A DNA stretch of 64,000 bases from Methylotenera versatilis 7 (lineage in GTDB: Bacteria; Pseudomonadota; Gammaproteobacteria; Burkholderiales; Methylophilaceae). Location: positions 124,001 through 188,000 of the forward strand of contig NZ_JUGF01000001.1 in assembly GCF_000799165.1 (NCBI RefSeq), written 5' to 3'. Below are positions 1,852 to 25,185 of this stretch, piece after piece. Each line of letters begins with the position of its first letter. The first letter of the stretch is position 1. The translations under genes and the position numbers were made by a program. The notes below the pieces were generated by a model, which worked only from the letters and a program-made list of their open reading frames with translations, ran no database searches and was not told the DNA's origin.

Positions 1852-1889
1852 TGGTTGTATACAACCATATTGGTGGTTGTATACAACCA
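1852..1889. promoter_or_regulatory. Twin 16-bp palindromes, candidate activator (UAS) sites
   Basis: Two identical perfect palindromes, TGGTTGTATACAACCA, lie at 1852-1867 and 1874-1889. Their centres are 22 bp apart, about two helical turns. They sit about 116 and 138 bp upstream of the start predicted from the sigma-54 promoter at 1972-1988, the usual place for enhancer sites of NtrC-type activators. The NtrC-type gene at 4512 is the obvious candidate to bind. The core also resembles GntR-type operators, and the pair could fold as a 16-bp RNA stem, so the role is inferred. Confidence 0.65.
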
Positions 1890-1930
1890 ATAAACCAATT
1901 TATAATAGCTGTTTTTCACGGCGATAAAAT

Positions 1931-1943
1931 TTAGCCATTGATT
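1931..1943 (-). promoter_or_regulatory. IHF-like site between UAS and promoter
   Basis: The minus strand reads AATCAATGGCTAA, matching the IHF consensus WATCAANNNNTTR at all but one defined position. It lies about 61 bp upstream of the predicted start, between the twin palindromes and the -24/-12 element, where IHF bends DNA in many sigma-54 promoters. Such sites arise often by chance in AT-rich DNA; the position is what supports it. Confidence 0.45.
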
Positions 1944-1971
1944 TAATTGAAGTTTTTATAACTGTTGATTC

Positions 1972-1988
1972 TGGAACGCGTCTTGCAT
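1972..1988 (+). promoter_or_regulatory. Sigma-54 (-24/-12) promoter for the TonB-dependent receptor
   Basis: TGGAACGCGTCTTGCAT fits the sigma-54 consensus TGGCACGN4TTGCW with one mismatch in the -24 block. The invariant GG (1973-1974) and GC (1985-1986) are separated by exactly 10 bp. Transcription would start near 1998, giving a leader of about 29 nt before the ATG at 2027. No equally good sigma-70 promoter was seen here. Confidence 0.7.
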
Positions 1989-2026
1989 AGTTATGCCAGT
2001 TGTATATTTAAATCTAGGGAGTCAAC

Positions 2027-4477
2027 ATGCAAGCAACACTTAAATCTAAAATAAAATTACAAAGTAAACCAAAATTAACCCTCATTTCTGTCATGATTTC
2101 CTGTGCTTTGCCACAATTGGCGCAAGCAGAAGAGATGGCGCGTACAAGCGCTGAGAAAATTGAAGTGATTTCTACTACGCCATTACCAGGGATTGGGTTG
2201 CCACTTCATAAAGTGCCAGCCAATATTCAAGTGGCTGTACCTCAAGATGTGAATAATCAAACAGGCGTTTCGATTGCCGATTACATGAATAACAATATGC
2301 AAGGTGTTTCCGTTACCGAAATGGGCGGCAATCCTTGGCAGCCTGAAATTAACTTCCGTGGCTACTCTTCATCACCGTTATTAGGCAATGCACAAGGTCT
2401 TTCTACTTATATCGATGGTGTGCGTGTCAATGAACCGTTTGGCGATGTGACGCTCTGGGACAAGATTCCTAGTTTTGCTATCGGCAATATGCAAATGATT
2501 CCTGGATCCAATCCATTGTTTGGTTTAAATACTTTAGGTGGCGCTATTGCTATTCAGACCAAGAATGGTCGTGATAATCAAGGCGCTGCAGTTGAATACG
2601 AGGCTGGCTCATGGGGTCGTCAACGTGCGTTAATTGAATACGGTGGCGTTTCAGAAGATGGTTCCGTTGACTACATGTTTGGCTATCAACATACTACCGA
2701 AAATGGTTGGAGAGATTATTCACCATCGCATGTGAATCAGCTATTTGGTAAAACAGGCTGGCAAAATGAATCTACCAAGTTAGACCTTACCTATATTGGT
2801 ACAGATAATAATTTAATTGGTAATGGCTTTACACCTGAAATTCTGTTGCATGGCAAGCGTGACCAGATTCACACACGCCCAGACTTTACTAATAACTATT
2901 CTCACTTTTTAGCGCTAAATGGTTCACATTTCTTTAATGAAGATACGATGTTCTCAGGTAATGTGTACTATAAAAAATCAAACCGTCACACTAAAAATGG
3001 TGATGCGTGGGAAGGTGACAATGAAGATGGAGACCTGGAAGCGCTATATCCTGGCTATGCTGGGGAATTCGACGATGAAGAATATCTTGGTGCTGTCATG
3101 AACACGACCAAGACCACTCAAGACACATACGGTTTAACTGGTCAGTTTGCTTTTGATCAGGATTGGATGGGTAAAAAGAATCAGTTTATCGTTGGCGCAG
3201 GTTACGACTATACACTCATGCGATTCAAACAGTCAGAGCACGTCAATGTGGCTGGTGAAGAGGATGACGTGTTTGATGATGGATTAGGCGAAAATGTATG
3301 GACACCGTCAAGAAAACCAATTATGAGCGGCCCTGAATTTGAAGATGGCGCAGGCTTGCTTCCCAAACGCCAAACTGTTGGTTTAACCGGTAAACAATAC
3401 ACTGCTCGTCTCTTTGCAACAGACACATTATCGTTAAACGATCAATGGCATTTGAATGCAGGCGCAAGCTGGAATTTCACACGTATTGATAATTCAGACA
3501 CATTACGCGGCGATGATGGTGATTTATCGCTTACTGCTAAAGATAGTTACACACGCCTAAATCCAACAATCGGTCTAACACATACGCCAAGTGAAAGTTT
3601 GACTTTCTATACCTCTTATAGTGAATCAAGCCGTGCACCAACAGCAATTGAGCTAGGTTGCTCTAATCCAGCCAATCCATGTCTATTGCCGGCTGCGATG
3701 GCAGATGACCCTCCACTGAACCAAGTGGTTGCTAAAACCTATGAATTTGGTGGACGTGGCAAGTTAACTGATTCTATCAACTGGAATGCTGGCATTTACC
3801 ATGCCGTGAATCACGACGACATTCAGTTCACTGCATCAAATCAACTATCCGGTGCAGGTTACTACAGAAACATTGGCAGAACTAAACGTCAAGGTCTGGA
3901 TTTTGGTTTGAACGGTAATTTAGAAAAATTCAAATGGGGTGCGTCATATAGTTATGTAAGAGCCACTTATGACACAGAGGTTGAATTTGCTAATGAGTCA
4001 AACTCATCTCACGATGATGGTATTTATACTGCGACTAAAGGTGATTATTTACCATCTATTCCTAAACACCAGATCAAACTGCGTGGCCAATATGCAGTCA
4101 CCCCTGCATGGACAGTCGGTGCGAACGTCATTGGTTATTCAAGCCAGTATGTGTGGGGGAATGAAAACAACAAACACAAGGCAAACTCTGCTAATTGTGA
4201 TGGTGGTGAAGACTGCGCAACCGGTAAAGGCAAAATTAGCGGTTACTTTGTTGTGAACCTGGATACCCAATACAACATTGGTAATGGCTGGAAAGCATTT
4301 GCAAAAGCCACTAATATTTTTGACAAAAACTATTACATCAGTGGTCGTTTAGCTGAAACCGCATTTAACTCTGCCGGCGTATTTGGTGAAGAGGCCAGAA
4401 TGTTAGGTTTGTTGCCTGGTGCTCCACGTGCTGCTTGGTTGGGCTTGCGCTATGAGTTTGCTGCACCAAAAAAATAG
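2027..4477 (+). CDS. TonB-dependent outer-membrane receptor
   Basis: An 816-residue outer-membrane receptor expected to import a bound ligand using TonB-ExbBD energy. A signal peptide covers residues 1 to about 34, ending ALPQLAQA. The plug domain follows (TTPLPGIG near residue 50, then an NFRGYSSSP-type segment), then a C-terminal beta-barrel. Predicted outer loops at about 325-353 and 411-423 are strongly acidic, and two other loops carry paired cysteines (ELGCSNPANPC and NCDGGEDC). Acidic loops could suit a cationic or metal ligand, but that is inference. The start has the SD TAGGGAG. A sigma-54 promoter precedes it and a sigma-54 activator follows after 34 bp. Confidence 0.9.
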   Translation: MQATLKSKIKLQSKPKLTLISVMISCALPQLAQAEEMARTSAEKIEVISTTPLPGIGLPLHKVPANIQVAVPQDVNNQTGVSIADYMNNNMQGVSVTEMGGNPWQPEINFRGYSSSPLLGNAQGLSTYIDGVRVNEPFGDVTLWDKIPSFAIGNMQMIPGSNPLFGLNTLGGAIAIQTKNGRDNQGAAVEYEAGSWGRQRALIEYGGVSEDGSVDYMFGYQHTTENGWRDYSPSHVNQLFGKTGWQNESTKLDLTYIGTDNNLIGNGFTPEILLHGKRDQIHTRPDFTNNYSHFLALNGSHFFNEDTMFSGNVYYKKSNRHTKNGDAWEGDNEDGDLEALYPGYAGEFDDEEYLGAVMNTTKTTQDTYGLTGQFAFDQDWMGKKNQFIVGAGYDYTLMRFKQSEHVNVAGEEDDVFDDGLGENVWTPSRKPIMSGPEFEDGAGLLPKRQTVGLTGKQYTARLFATDTLSLNDQWHLNAGASWNFTRIDNSDTLRGDDGDLSLTAKDSYTRLNPTIGLTHTPSESLTFYTSYSESSRAPTAIELGCSNPANPCLLPAAMADDPPLNQVVAKTYEFGGRGKLTDSINWNAGIYHAVNHDDIQFTASNQLSGAGYYRNIGRTKRQGLDFGLNGNLEKFKWGASYSYVRATYDTEVEFANESNSSHDDGIYTATKGDYLPSIPKHQIKLRGQYAVTPAWTVGANVIGYSSQYVWGNENNKHKANSANCDGGEDCATGKGKISGYFVVNLDTQYNIGNGWKAFAKATNIFDKNYYISGRLAETAFNSAGVFGEEARMLGLLPGAPRAAWLGLRYEFAAPKK

Positions 4478-4511
4478 CCAGAGTCATTTAATGATTAACG
4501 CAGGAGTTTAA

Positions 4512-5951
4512 TTGCTCGCACAACACACTCAATCAAAACCCGCCCATGCAGATTCTGGGCGTGCAGAACAGTCAACGCACTTCAACCAATCTAAAAAAAT
4601 ATTGATTGTAGAAGATGAGGTGCTGTTTGCACGCGCGGTGCAAAAGCGTTTGCAAAAAGCGGGTTTTGAGTGTGAGCATGTTGAAAATTTAGCCGATGCG
4701 CGTGCGATCATTAAGCAGTTCAACGCAGATCTAGTCTTGCTGGATATGCGTTTGCCGGATGGTAATGGTTTAGATTTATTGAGTGAGTTCGTTGCAAAAA
4801 GTATGACGACGATCGTCATGACAGCATATGGCGAAGTTAGCGATGCCGTAACTGCAATGAAGTTAGGCGCAAATGATTACTTAAAAAAACCAATTGATTT
4901 AGAAGAGTTATTATTAGTTGTTCAAAAAAACGAAAAAACCTCAGCGCTTCAAACCAGCTTGGATTATGCGCGGCAACGCAATGCACATTCTAGCGACGGT
5001 ATTGCATTAATTGGTGATAGCCCCGCCACCCAAAGTATTCATATGCAAATTGCGCGTATTGCACAGTTGGGGCATTTGACTGATTCTGTCGCGCCAACGG
5101 TTTTAATTACAGGTGAAACCGGTACAGGGAAAGATGTTGCAGCCCGATTACTGCATGCCTCTGGAACCAATAGTGAAAAGCCTTTTGTACATGTTGACTG
5201 TGCTTCTTTGCCAAACGAATTAATTGAAAGTGAGCTATTCGGCCACGAAAAAGGTGCATTTACCAATGCGATTACTTCAAGACCTGGTTTGATTGAGGCA
5301 GCAGAAGACGGCACGCTGTTTTTGGATGAAATTGGCGAGTTGCCGTTAGCATTGCAAGCGAAGTTATTAAGTGTGCTGGAACGTCGCCGCGTAAGGCGAT
5401 TGGGTTCAACTAAAGAACGTATCGTACCAGCGCGTATTATTGCGGCAACCAACCGCAATTTGCATGAGATGTCGCAAAATGGGCGTTTCCGCTCAGATTT
5501 ATACTATCGCTTAAATGTGATGACGATATCACTTGCGCCTTTGCGTGAGCGCGGTAACGATATATTGCAGTTAGCAAAACATTTTATGCAGTTAACTGAA
5601 AAGCGCTACGGATTAGCGAAACATCAGTTTAGCCAGTCGGCAATCGATGCGATGCAGCTTTACAATTGGCCTGGCAATGTGCGTGAGTTACGTCACCAAA
5701 TTAGCCGCGCCGTATTATTAAGCAGCCAAGCCCAAATTACGGCTAATGATTTAAATTTGCTCGACAGTAAAAATAAAGCTGGTAATGAGCATCATCAACA
5801 ATCCCAATTAACCTTAGATGCAACTGAAAAAAGTATGTTACTGAAGGCTTTAGAGGCTGCACATAACAATGTATCTGAGGCTGCACGCCAATTAGGCATT
5901 ACTCGTATGACTATGCGCTATCGCATGGATAAGCATGGCATTAGCTTTTAA
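4512..5951 (+). CDS. NtrC-family sigma-54-dependent response regulator
   Basis: A 479-residue enhancer-binding protein. A receiver domain (about 28-140) has its phosphoacceptor at D78 (LLDMRLPDGNG) and the KP lysine near 115. The AAA+ domain has Walker A GETGTGKD at 201-208 and Walker B LFLDEIGEL. The sigma-54 contact loop reads GAFTNA (248-253) instead of GAFTGA. A Fis-type HTH ends the protein (about 440-479). The start is TTG at 4512 with GGAG five bases upstream. No histidine kinase is adjacent. It lies 34 bp after the receptor with no clear terminator between, so it is probably cotranscribed and likely controls the receptor promoter. Confidence 0.88.
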   Translation: MLAQHTQSKPAHADSGRAEQSTHFNQSKKILIVEDEVLFARAVQKRLQKAGFECEHVENLADARAIIKQFNADLVLLDMRLPDGNGLDLLSEFVAKSMTTIVMTAYGEVSDAVTAMKLGANDYLKKPIDLEELLLVVQKNEKTSALQTSLDYARQRNAHSSDGIALIGDSPATQSIHMQIARIAQLGHLTDSVAPTVLITGETGTGKDVAARLLHASGTNSEKPFVHVDCASLPNELIESELFGHEKGAFTNAITSRPGLIEAAEDGTLFLDEIGELPLALQAKLLSVLERRRVRRLGSTKERIVPARIIAATNRNLHEMSQNGRFRSDLYYRLNVMTISLAPLRERGNDILQLAKHFMQLTEKRYGLAKHQFSQSAIDAMQLYNWPGNVRELRHQISRAVLLSSQAQITANDLNLLDSKNKAGNEHHQQSQLTLDATEKSMLLKALEAAHNNVSEAARQLGITRMTMRYRMDKHGISF

Positions 5952-23675: not shown

Positions 23676-23760
23676 GATAATATGGCTGAACTATTTTATT
23701 TGGATAGTGTTTTATATTTATAATCATCTGAATTAATTAAAAGAATTGAGCTTAAGCAGT

Positions 23761-25185
23761 ATGTCAAAAAGTAATAGTAAAAATGGTTTCTCTGAACGTT
23801 TGGCGGTGTTAATGCAGCAAAAGCAATTAACTTTTGCACAAATAGCAAACGCAGTTGGTAAATCCGCTCCCTCTGTACATCGATGGGCAAATGGAGGCGA
23901 AATTGATTATGAAAACTTAAGAGTACTAGCCAATTTTCTAGAGGTTAACTGGATTTGGCTTCGCTATGGGGATGATGCTATTCAAAGCATTCAAGATGTA
24001 GTTCAGGGGCAACGTCAAAGCGCGATGACAGATATAAGAAGAAAGTATCTGACTGACATTATGGAAAGCGAAGCGCGCATGAAGTTGACGCTTGAAATGG
24101 CCGGGGTTGTCTCTTGGGAGTGGAATGTATTAACTGGCTCAATAACCTTTAGTGACAATGCAAAGCAGGTTTTCGGTGTAGAACCTGAACAAATAAGAGC
24201 GAAGTTATTGCCTTTTGAAGAGATGCTGCTTGAAGATTTGATTGATCAGTTTGATGTTGCAACGCCACCCAACTGGGATTTTAGCTTAAATGATTCTAAA
24301 ACTAACGAAGAGCGCTGGTTCAACTCTAGAGGCATGCTTGTTAGGGACTCTATGCAAAGACCATCAAAATTGATGGCAATTAGTGCGGATATCACAGATA
24401 GAAAGCGTGCTGAAAAGGCGCTGGAATTTAGCGATCTTATGATGAGAAACATGATTGATATTATTCCGGTAGGTTTATGTGGGGCAGATAAAGATGGGCA
24501 CATACATCTTTTAAATCCAGAAGTGAAAAGGATTTGGGGCGGTGAAAGATATGTGGATCTGGATAAATACGGTGAGTACAAAGGCTGGAAAGAAGCGGAT
24601 GGGAATGAACTAGGAGCTGAAGGTTGGGCTTTGGCGCGCGCGGTGAAGCACGGAGAGATTGTTGCTAAAGAAACTGTCAATATCCAAGCGTTTGATGGAG
24701 AGAAAAGAACTATCGTTATGTATGCAATGCCGTTGTTAGATGCGGATAAACAAATTGTCGGTGCGATAGAGGTTAACCAAGATATTACCGACGCTAAGAA
24801 TTTAGAGCGCACTTATAAAATAGGCCTGCAAAATTGGGACGCTATTTTTTCTCAGGAAAGCTATGGCGTGATGGTGCTAAAAGGATCGAATCGCATTGAG
24901 GCTGTTAATAAAAAAATAGCGGAAATTTGCGGTAAAAATGAAGCTGAAATTTTAAAACGTGGATTAGAAATAATTTTTGGAGATGATACCTGCCAGCGAA
25001 TCAGCGATCTTTTAAGCAAATTTAAAAAAGGAGTGGTTAGCACGCATAGGCTAACAGCTGAGGTGAAAAAACACTCATCAACCAGCAAGGCGTACACATT
25101 ATTAGCTGGCGAGATTCTTGTGTTTGTGGATGCGCGAGATGAGAGTCGACTGAAAGCGACGGTGCTGATGTTGGATAGTTTTTAG
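23761..25185 (+). CDS. XRE-like HTH protein with PAS sensor domains
   Basis: A regulator of about 474 residues. An N-terminal lambda-repressor-like HTH (about 8-60; TFAQIANAVGKSAPSVHRWANGG) is followed by a PAS domain (about 100-215; VSWEWNVLTGSITFSDNAKQVFG). A second PAS follows (about 220-345; IIPVGLCGADKDGHIHLLNPE) and a third, divergent one (about 350-470). There is no kinase, GGDEF or other output domain, so DNA binding is the likely output and PAS the sensor. The start is ATG at 23761; a TTG at 23746 is less likely. The twin operators just upstream suggest autoregulation and control of the cupin gene. The sensed signal is unknown. Confidence 0.75.
   Translation: MSKSNSKNGFSERLAVLMQQKQLTFAQIANAVGKSAPSVHRWANGGEIDYENLRVLANFLEVNWIWLRYGDDAIQSIQDVVQGQRQSAMTDIRRKYLTDIMESEARMKLTLEMAGVVSWEWNVLTGSITFSDNAKQVFGVEPEQIRAKLLPFEEMLLEDLIDQFDVATPPNWDFSLNDSKTNEERWFNSRGMLVRDSMQRPSKLMAISADITDRKRAEKALEFSDLMMRNMIDIIPVGLCGADKDGHIHLLNPEVKRIWGGERYVDLDKYGEYKGWKEADGNELGAEGWALARAVKHGEIVAKETVNIQAFDGEKRTIVMYAMPLLDADKQIVGAIEVNQDITDAKNLERTYKIGLQNWDAIFSQESYGVMVLKGSNRIEAVNKKIAEICGKNEAEILKRGLEIIFGDDTCQRISDLLSKFKKGVVSTHRLTAEVKKHSSTSKAYTLLAGEILVFVDARDESRLKATVLMLDSF

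Follow-up and report, generated by a model that had tools for sequence, protein, structure and literature searches.

In the LuxO-Qrr circuit of vibrios, an NtrC-type response regulator acting through sigma-54 drives small RNAs, and in Pseudomonas syringae HrpR and HrpS belong to the control of hrpL. Here we describe a locus of Methylotenera versatilis 7 that recalls both systems. It lies in a window of 64,000 nucleotides, the whole stretch of DNA that was analysed (positions 124001-188000 of contig C2, in a genome of 2.50 Mb on three contigs), and consists of a gene for a TonB-dependent receptor (TBDR), a gene for an NtrC-type activator, and, ahead of both, two palindromes and a -24/-12 element. 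Judging from sequence, and with a probability of roughly three in four, this locus acts as the hub that controls a sigma-54 regulon through which the Methylophilaceae scavenge scarce metals or metallophores by TonB-dependent uptake, partly via FecI cascades. Like LuxO, to which it is related in sequence (322.8 bits with the NCBIfam LuxO model; PDB 5ep0), the activator seems to act on genes for small structured RNAs and on protein genes alike; it differs in scoring below the LuxO cut-off of 800, and its apparent targets here are TonB receptors and FecI operons. The hrpL gene is sigma-54-dependent (PMC5263251, in part), and the likeness lies in a sigma-54 promoter before the gene of an extracytoplasmic function (ECF) sigma factor, that is, in a sigma cascade. 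By comparison, the present case involves several sigmas of FecI type, each accompanied by FecR and a TBDR, and a receiver-bearing activator encoded just behind a receptor gene.

Other described systems share parts of this arrangement. The target operons follow the FecI, FecR, TBDR gene order of FecI/FecR/FecA signalling, in which, unlike here, E. coli fecIR is described as transcribed by sigma-70 under Fur (PMC9249621, in part); the terms sigma54, RpoN and NtrC have zero occurrences in the main text of that review. In Flavobacteriia, sigma-54 control of TonB (COG0810) was suggested from promoter predictions and called unconfirmed; that case differs in concerning another phylum and TonB itself, and the accessible sections name neither an activator nor a site (PMC12316311). 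LanPepSY is described as a 19-kDa protein with two PepSY domains that binds lanthanides in M. flagellatus (PMC12482762 and PMC11845868, in part). It forms part of the lanthanome with LutH and LanA; lutH expression is repressed by La, and the pairing of a receptor with a two-PepSY periplasmic protein in methylotrophs resembles the gene set found here, although no sigma-54 control of a receptor or binding protein is named in the accessible sections (PMC12482762; PMC11845868; PMC7391723), and the ligand in our case is only a candidate. The named lanthanide regulators MxbDM and PedS2/PedR2 act on dehydrogenase genes (PMC7391723, in part), and a GAF-type sigma-54 regulator gene is listed in a figure legend on methanol-dehydrogenase gene clusters (PMC11845868, in part). 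No sigma-54/FecI connection and no metal regulator of the Methylophilaceae was found in the searched literature, which covers few subscription journals (nearest: PMC12316311 and PMC5263251), and within it a sigma-54 layer above FecI operons looks new.

The control region lies in an intergenic stretch of 177 bp ahead of the receptor gene, directly behind an FtsX-like permease gene that opens the window and stops at 1849. Two identical 16-bp palindromes, TGGTTGTATACAACCA, form the putative upstream enhancer sites (1852-1867 and 1874-1889, 22 bp apart). They are followed by an IHF-like site on the minus strand (AATCAATGGCTAA, 1931-1943, one mismatch) and by a candidate sigma-54 promoter on the plus strand (TGGAACGCGTCTTGCA, 1972-1987, one mismatch from the -24/-12 consensus), which lies 98 bp past the second palindrome and would place the transcript start near 1998. 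The window holds no further TGGTTGTATACAACCA copy at up to three mismatches; at least two such relaxed matches arise in 8 of 100 shuffles. Across the whole genome nine palindrome sites occur at up to two mismatches, against none for the reversed pattern. The IHF-like match is equalled in 37% of shuffles of the intergenic stretch, which is chance level by itself, and the 19 -24/-12 matches found in the window at up to two mismatches, against 16.8 expected, are uninformative alone. Consensus scans being insufficient for these two elements, conservation was used in their place, and both are credible because they are conserved and not because of match quality: in an alignment of the window with seven relatives, the IHF-like core TTGAT (1938-1942) and the GG...TTGC of the promoter are invariant, as are 10/16 and 13/16 bases of the two palindromes.

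Conservation was followed through the activator, which was matched at E<=1e-130 in 103 of 187 family genomes, the present one included. Forty loci from 39 of these 103 genomes were compared, and 38 were usable after two at contig edges (G062 and G051) had been dropped before the counts; the G065 activator row, an open reading frame on the opposite strand, was dropped as well. At least two palindromes precede the receptor in 34 of the 38 loci (reversed matrix, 0/38). A -24/-12-like element follows 60-140 bp beyond them in 32 of the 34, its -12 part reading TTGA in 10 cases and TTGT in one, in place of TTGC; the distance from the last palindrome is 98-101 bp in 19 of these 32 (full range 68-114), and the palindromes themselves are spaced in groups of 18-24, 31-32 and 42 bp. 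With a stricter promoter pattern at the right spacing, 19/34 TBDR and 14/26 FecI upstream regions matched, while four wrong spacings gave 0 or 1. The four loci without sites are those of G054 (a receptor fragment), G070 (a split receptor), G056 and the second locus of G130, the last two with no receptor adjoining the activator. The G070 receptor gene (L295, contig C20) lies in two reading frames behind palindrome-like sites with three mismatches. At L292 (G130:C1:1283537) a second activator paralogue, without palindromes or adjoining receptor, stands near genes that by eye look arsenic-related.

Across genomes, the palindrome (at most one mismatch) occurs in 60 of the 103 genomes with the activator and in 6 of the 84 without (Fisher p=2.8e-14, with no phylogenetic correction); the six are 74-90% complete, and the reversed pattern occurs in 3/187. 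Even at loci with another upstream neighbour or another receptor, the palindrome is retained next to the activator. In a comparison of 36 genomes, 11 "type A" receptors, that of the window among them, form one clade with support 1.0, and these are scattered in the activator tree, where their largest pure clade numbers three. On these trees the receptor slot is unstable, with at least two receptor types swapping while the activator and the regulatory shell persist; presumably an exchange of receptor is an exchange of ligand specificity. The palindrome-activator system is probably a family-wide metal-scavenging regulon, a variant of sigma-54 response-regulator control.

The sequence-only reading of this DNA had proposed much of this layout, and most of it stands. 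Its twin palindromes are as it described them; its IHF-like match and -24/-12 element are present and, though at chance level alone, are upheld by the family; the succession of a receptor and, 34 bp on, an NtrC-type activator is borne out by the Pfam domains of both; and, as far as sequence tells, an activator-type sigma-54 control region does precede the receptor-activator operon. The palindromes were also found beside orthologues of both genes at the 34 of 38 loci, which passes a refutation test that this reading had set in advance. What fell was the description of the circuit as self-contained, since the same sites precede FecI/FecR/TBDR operons and the genes of LanPepSY-like proteins, beta-propellers and a structured RNA.

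The two window genes are both on the plus strand. Behind a Shine-Dalgarno-like TAGGGA (2015-2020), the receptor gene (2027-4477) encodes 816 aa with Plug and barrel domains; Pfam reported no STN signalling domain in it, and PDB holds no sequence matching it at E<=0.001. The activator gene (4512-5951, 479 aa, TTG start) follows a Shine-Dalgarno AGGAG (4502-4506). Its Pfam domains are REC, Sigma54_activat, an AAA lid and a Fis-type helix-turn-helix (REC, AAA+ and helix-turn-helix above gathering scores). The receiver (residues 30-137, 4599-4922) carries the phospho-acceptor D78 with T104 and K126, all three identical in 40/40 aligned activator proteins. The AAA+ sigma-54 interaction domain (residues 167-339, 5010-5528) has Walker A and B motifs conserved in the same alignment. 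The helix-turn-helix (residues 435-474, 5814-5933) includes a segment, TRM.MRYRM, almost invariant in the 40. The GAFTGA loop reads GAFTNA in the window activator (residue 252); at this fifth position the 40 orthologues have N in 15, S in 14 and G in 11. As with LuxO, the scores against other curated NCBIfam models stay below their cut-offs (NtrC 362.6 vs 558.6, AtoC 376.2 vs 714, PEP-CTERM response regulator 361.4 vs 502.6). RpoN is encoded in the genome. A 479-aa protein at 23746-25185 of the window has PAS domains only; Pfam, at E<=1e-6, recognised no output domain in it.

Several FecI operons appear to belong to the regulon. An independent FecI probe gave four genes in the own genome, and all four have a palindrome site upstream (C2:17052, 292930, 628898 and 659760), about 150-350 bp from the start of the matched stretch, with a -24/-12-like element, two or three mismatches from consensus, 87-131 bp beyond the palindrome. 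Two more FecI-FecR operons have tandem sites (C2:636446 and C1:156336). When a matrix trained on TBDR loci only was applied to the FecI upstream regions of other genomes (the best 80 of the listed matches, own excluded), it matched in 26, and the reversed matrix in none; a -24/-12-like element is present in 20 of these 26 and in 1 of the 54 without a palindrome (search windows of 91 and 80 bp). In the candidate target operon L086, sigma-70 r2/r4 and FecR score above cut-off; in L091 the STN domain of the receptor is weak (19.7 vs 28.4 bits cut-off). The score with the FecI equivalog model is 167 vs a cut-off of 260. A weak sigma-70 match was also seen at C1:963909 of the own genome.

The same matrix found sites at two further classes of protein gene. 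The LanPepSY-like gene of the own genome (C3:114280) has two palindrome sites upstream and encodes 175 aa, recognised as PepSY by alignment (the NCBIfam PepSY model is below cut-off); four relatives scanned with Pfam have 176-214 aa and two PepSY stretches each. From 116 genomes with a match, 43 upstream regions were taken, comprising the 30 best-match loci (own included) and 13 picked by genus, and the matrix matched in 32 (reversed, 0). Just downstream of the palindrome, LanPepSY upstream regions show a recurrent ATGTAA-N6/8-TGTAA repeat and then an IHF-like AATCAA-N4-YTA. The YncE-like beta-propeller gene of the own genome has one site (C1:918213), and the matrix, applied to the best 30 of the 168 matched genomes, found sites in 21 (reversed, 0). 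Sites are present in 16 of the 21 genomes that have the activator. By eye, the propeller promoters have a conserved TTGC and AG rather than GG at -24. The L415 row in the promoter count for these two classes is probably the promoter of an RNA gene.

That RNA is a structured small-RNA candidate on the minus strand (C3:114851-114966; L368:2352-2467). It lies behind the LanPepSY-like gene of the own genome and reads toward the 3' end of that gene, with a sigma-54-type promoter ahead and a terminator hairpin after it. Folding of this copy, with the terminator counted in, gives z -7.5. Seven copies served to build a covariance model, which found 12 distinct copies in 55 loci, the 7 training copies among them. 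A search of 51 other sources gave nothing convincing (best E 0.95), and no Rfam family reached the gathering score over the RNA at six loci. In the alignment, which was fitted to the model and so favours the structure, 95.8% of cells are paired and both partners have changed in 11/27 pairs; neither figure is reached in any of 500 shuffles, and with slid partners pairing is 34-48%. GG-N10-GC stands just ahead of the RNA in 12/12 copies, with promoters read from the flanks, and a palindrome (score at least 9) lies 104-166 bp upstream in 11/12 (reversed matrix, 0/12). The unbiased count is 7/8, with L139, L145, L149 and L315 left out because these loci were fetched through a palindrome. The copy at L149 (G142) sits in a 3-kb locus without a LanPepSY gene, beside a gene that is MocR-like by eye. 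Pairing of the RNA with receptor leaders through TCCTAG was considered and dropped, only 3 of 35 TBDR leaders matching.

Thirty-one further palindrome loci include second-class FecI operons, a TonB gene and a Plug-domain receptor, with more receptors recognised by eye. In the own genome, three sites fall within genes (C1:816992, C1:1406982 and C2:653640) and were taken as chance; a near-perfect single palindrome at C3:86773 (L088:3774), flanked by glyA and by a gene that looks phosphohexomutase-like by eye, has no clear target, and the site at C1:1186013 is likewise unexplained.

These observations suggest a mechanism in which an unlinked kinase would phosphorylate the activator's receiver when metal is scarce. 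The activator would then bind the tandem TGGYTRTWWAYARCCA palindromes, some 100 bp ahead of the -24/-12 promoters, and IHF-type bending may assist. Sigma-54 polymerase would transcribe first the receptor gene and next that of the activator, an order that makes autoactivation and positive feedback plausible. Through the same sites FecI/FecR/FecA-type operons would be turned on, sigma-54 licensing a second, ligand-specific ECF sigma layer; the sites also accompany the genes of the LanPepSY-like, putatively periplasmic protein, the YncE-like beta-propeller and the structured RNA.

A number of results weigh against the regulon reading. The matrix behind the 34/38 count was trained on those same loci; 43 of the 103 activator genomes lack a palindrome at up to one mismatch; and a relaxed pattern at up to two mismatches gave only 79 vs 31 in the own genome. 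No kinase was identified: in agreement with the sequence-only reading, Pfam detected no histidine-kinase domain in 25 open reading frames of the window (five from 1-16 kb and, from 16-64 kb, 20 among the 29 that reach 230 aa). For FecI, only the 4/4 count is unbiased, because the other two operons were found via the palindrome; 54 of the 80 upstream regions have no site, and the matches cluster among those most like the own FecI (15, 5, 2 and 4 per successive twenty). A right-spaced -24/-12 element was found in only 6 of the 32 LanPepSY and 0 of the 21 propeller upstream regions with a palindrome. The site is absent at the LanPepSY gene of G069, which we take to be M. flagellatus, a point of difference from the lanthanome, and also at those of G068, G071 and G072, the three other genomes tested in its genus. 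At several of the 31 further loci, L127, L134, L312, L313, L314 and L321 among them, no gene for uptake is visible. As direct targets, pyrroloquinoline quinone (PQQ) alcohol-dehydrogenase genes were rejected, no site scoring at least 12 being present at seven own loci, XoxF and MxaF taken together; one weak match of 10.3 lies past the 3' end of two of these genes.

Some of these points would fit a different regulator, for example of GntR type, that binds the palindrome, with the sigma-54 activator a mere neighbour. The sequence TTGTATACAA is a GntR-type operator, and the palindrome core resembles such operators. By eye, many LanPepSY promoters are sigma-70-like, and a propeller site of at least 12 is present in 5 of 9 genomes without a detected activator. 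These five (G126, G145, G149, G165 and G170) are 79-88% complete, so that sequence may be missing from the assemblies, and the G149 site may be an RNA promoter; they still weigh against a strict link. Yet the site tracks the activator across genomes, and remains beside it despite changes of upstream neighbour or receptor; at TBDR loci it comes as phased tandem copies with a -24/-12-like element about 100 bp further on, and FecI and RNA genes likewise have it ahead of an element of this kind, so that we regard a separate regulator as unlikely. Less likely by far is a strictly local, autoregulated operon with the remaining sites due to chance or another regulator: the activator locus does hold the perfect, paired copies in the own genome, but the result of the independent FecI probe and the matrix matches in three gene classes, with zero for the reversed matrix, argue for a wider set of targets.

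Within the regulon reading, the most likely ligand, as judged from gene content, is a lanthanide, with iron close behind; the lanthanide is favoured because a LanPepSY-like protein is in the target set and because the genome has several PQQ alcohol-dehydrogenase genes. The lack of sites at these dehydrogenase genes and at LanPepSY of G069 and its congeners, and the rarity of right-spaced -24/-12 elements at LanPepSY and propeller genes, speak against a simple lanthanide account. We tentatively suggest that the sigma-54 response regulator could act as a master switch by which the Methylophilaceae acquire lanthanides, scarcity turning on receptors, a bank of FecI sigmas, the PepSY protein and the RNA, and, as tentatively, that metal uptake across the outer membrane would be governed by a cascade of two tiers, from sigma-54 to ECF sigmas. 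A regulon for scavenging iron-siderophores, with LanPepSY-like and propeller proteins handling iron or several metals, is a doubtful but serious rival. FecI/FecR/FecA systems classically carry ferric carriers (PMC9249621, in part), the own genome has six FecI-type operons, and the window receptor comes closest to NCBIfam models of siderophore, heme and B12 types, without reaching any of their cut-offs; set against this, it is relatives of a protein described as lanthanide-binding (PMC12482762 and PMC11845868, in part) that have the site in most of the 43 upstream regions.

M. mobilis JLW8, which is without a classical methanol dehydrogenase, is described as having grown on methanol with La (PMC4109929, in part), and its LanPepSY-like gene (G123) has the site; the question is therefore directly testable in one strain. 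On the question of how methylotrophs sense lanthanides or competing metals and regulate their uptake, the locus provides a candidate for the regulator, together with a defined DNA site, a list of targets and a new RNA. A sigma-54 layer over FecI systems, if true, would also alter the way in which operons of this kind are interpreted elsewhere.

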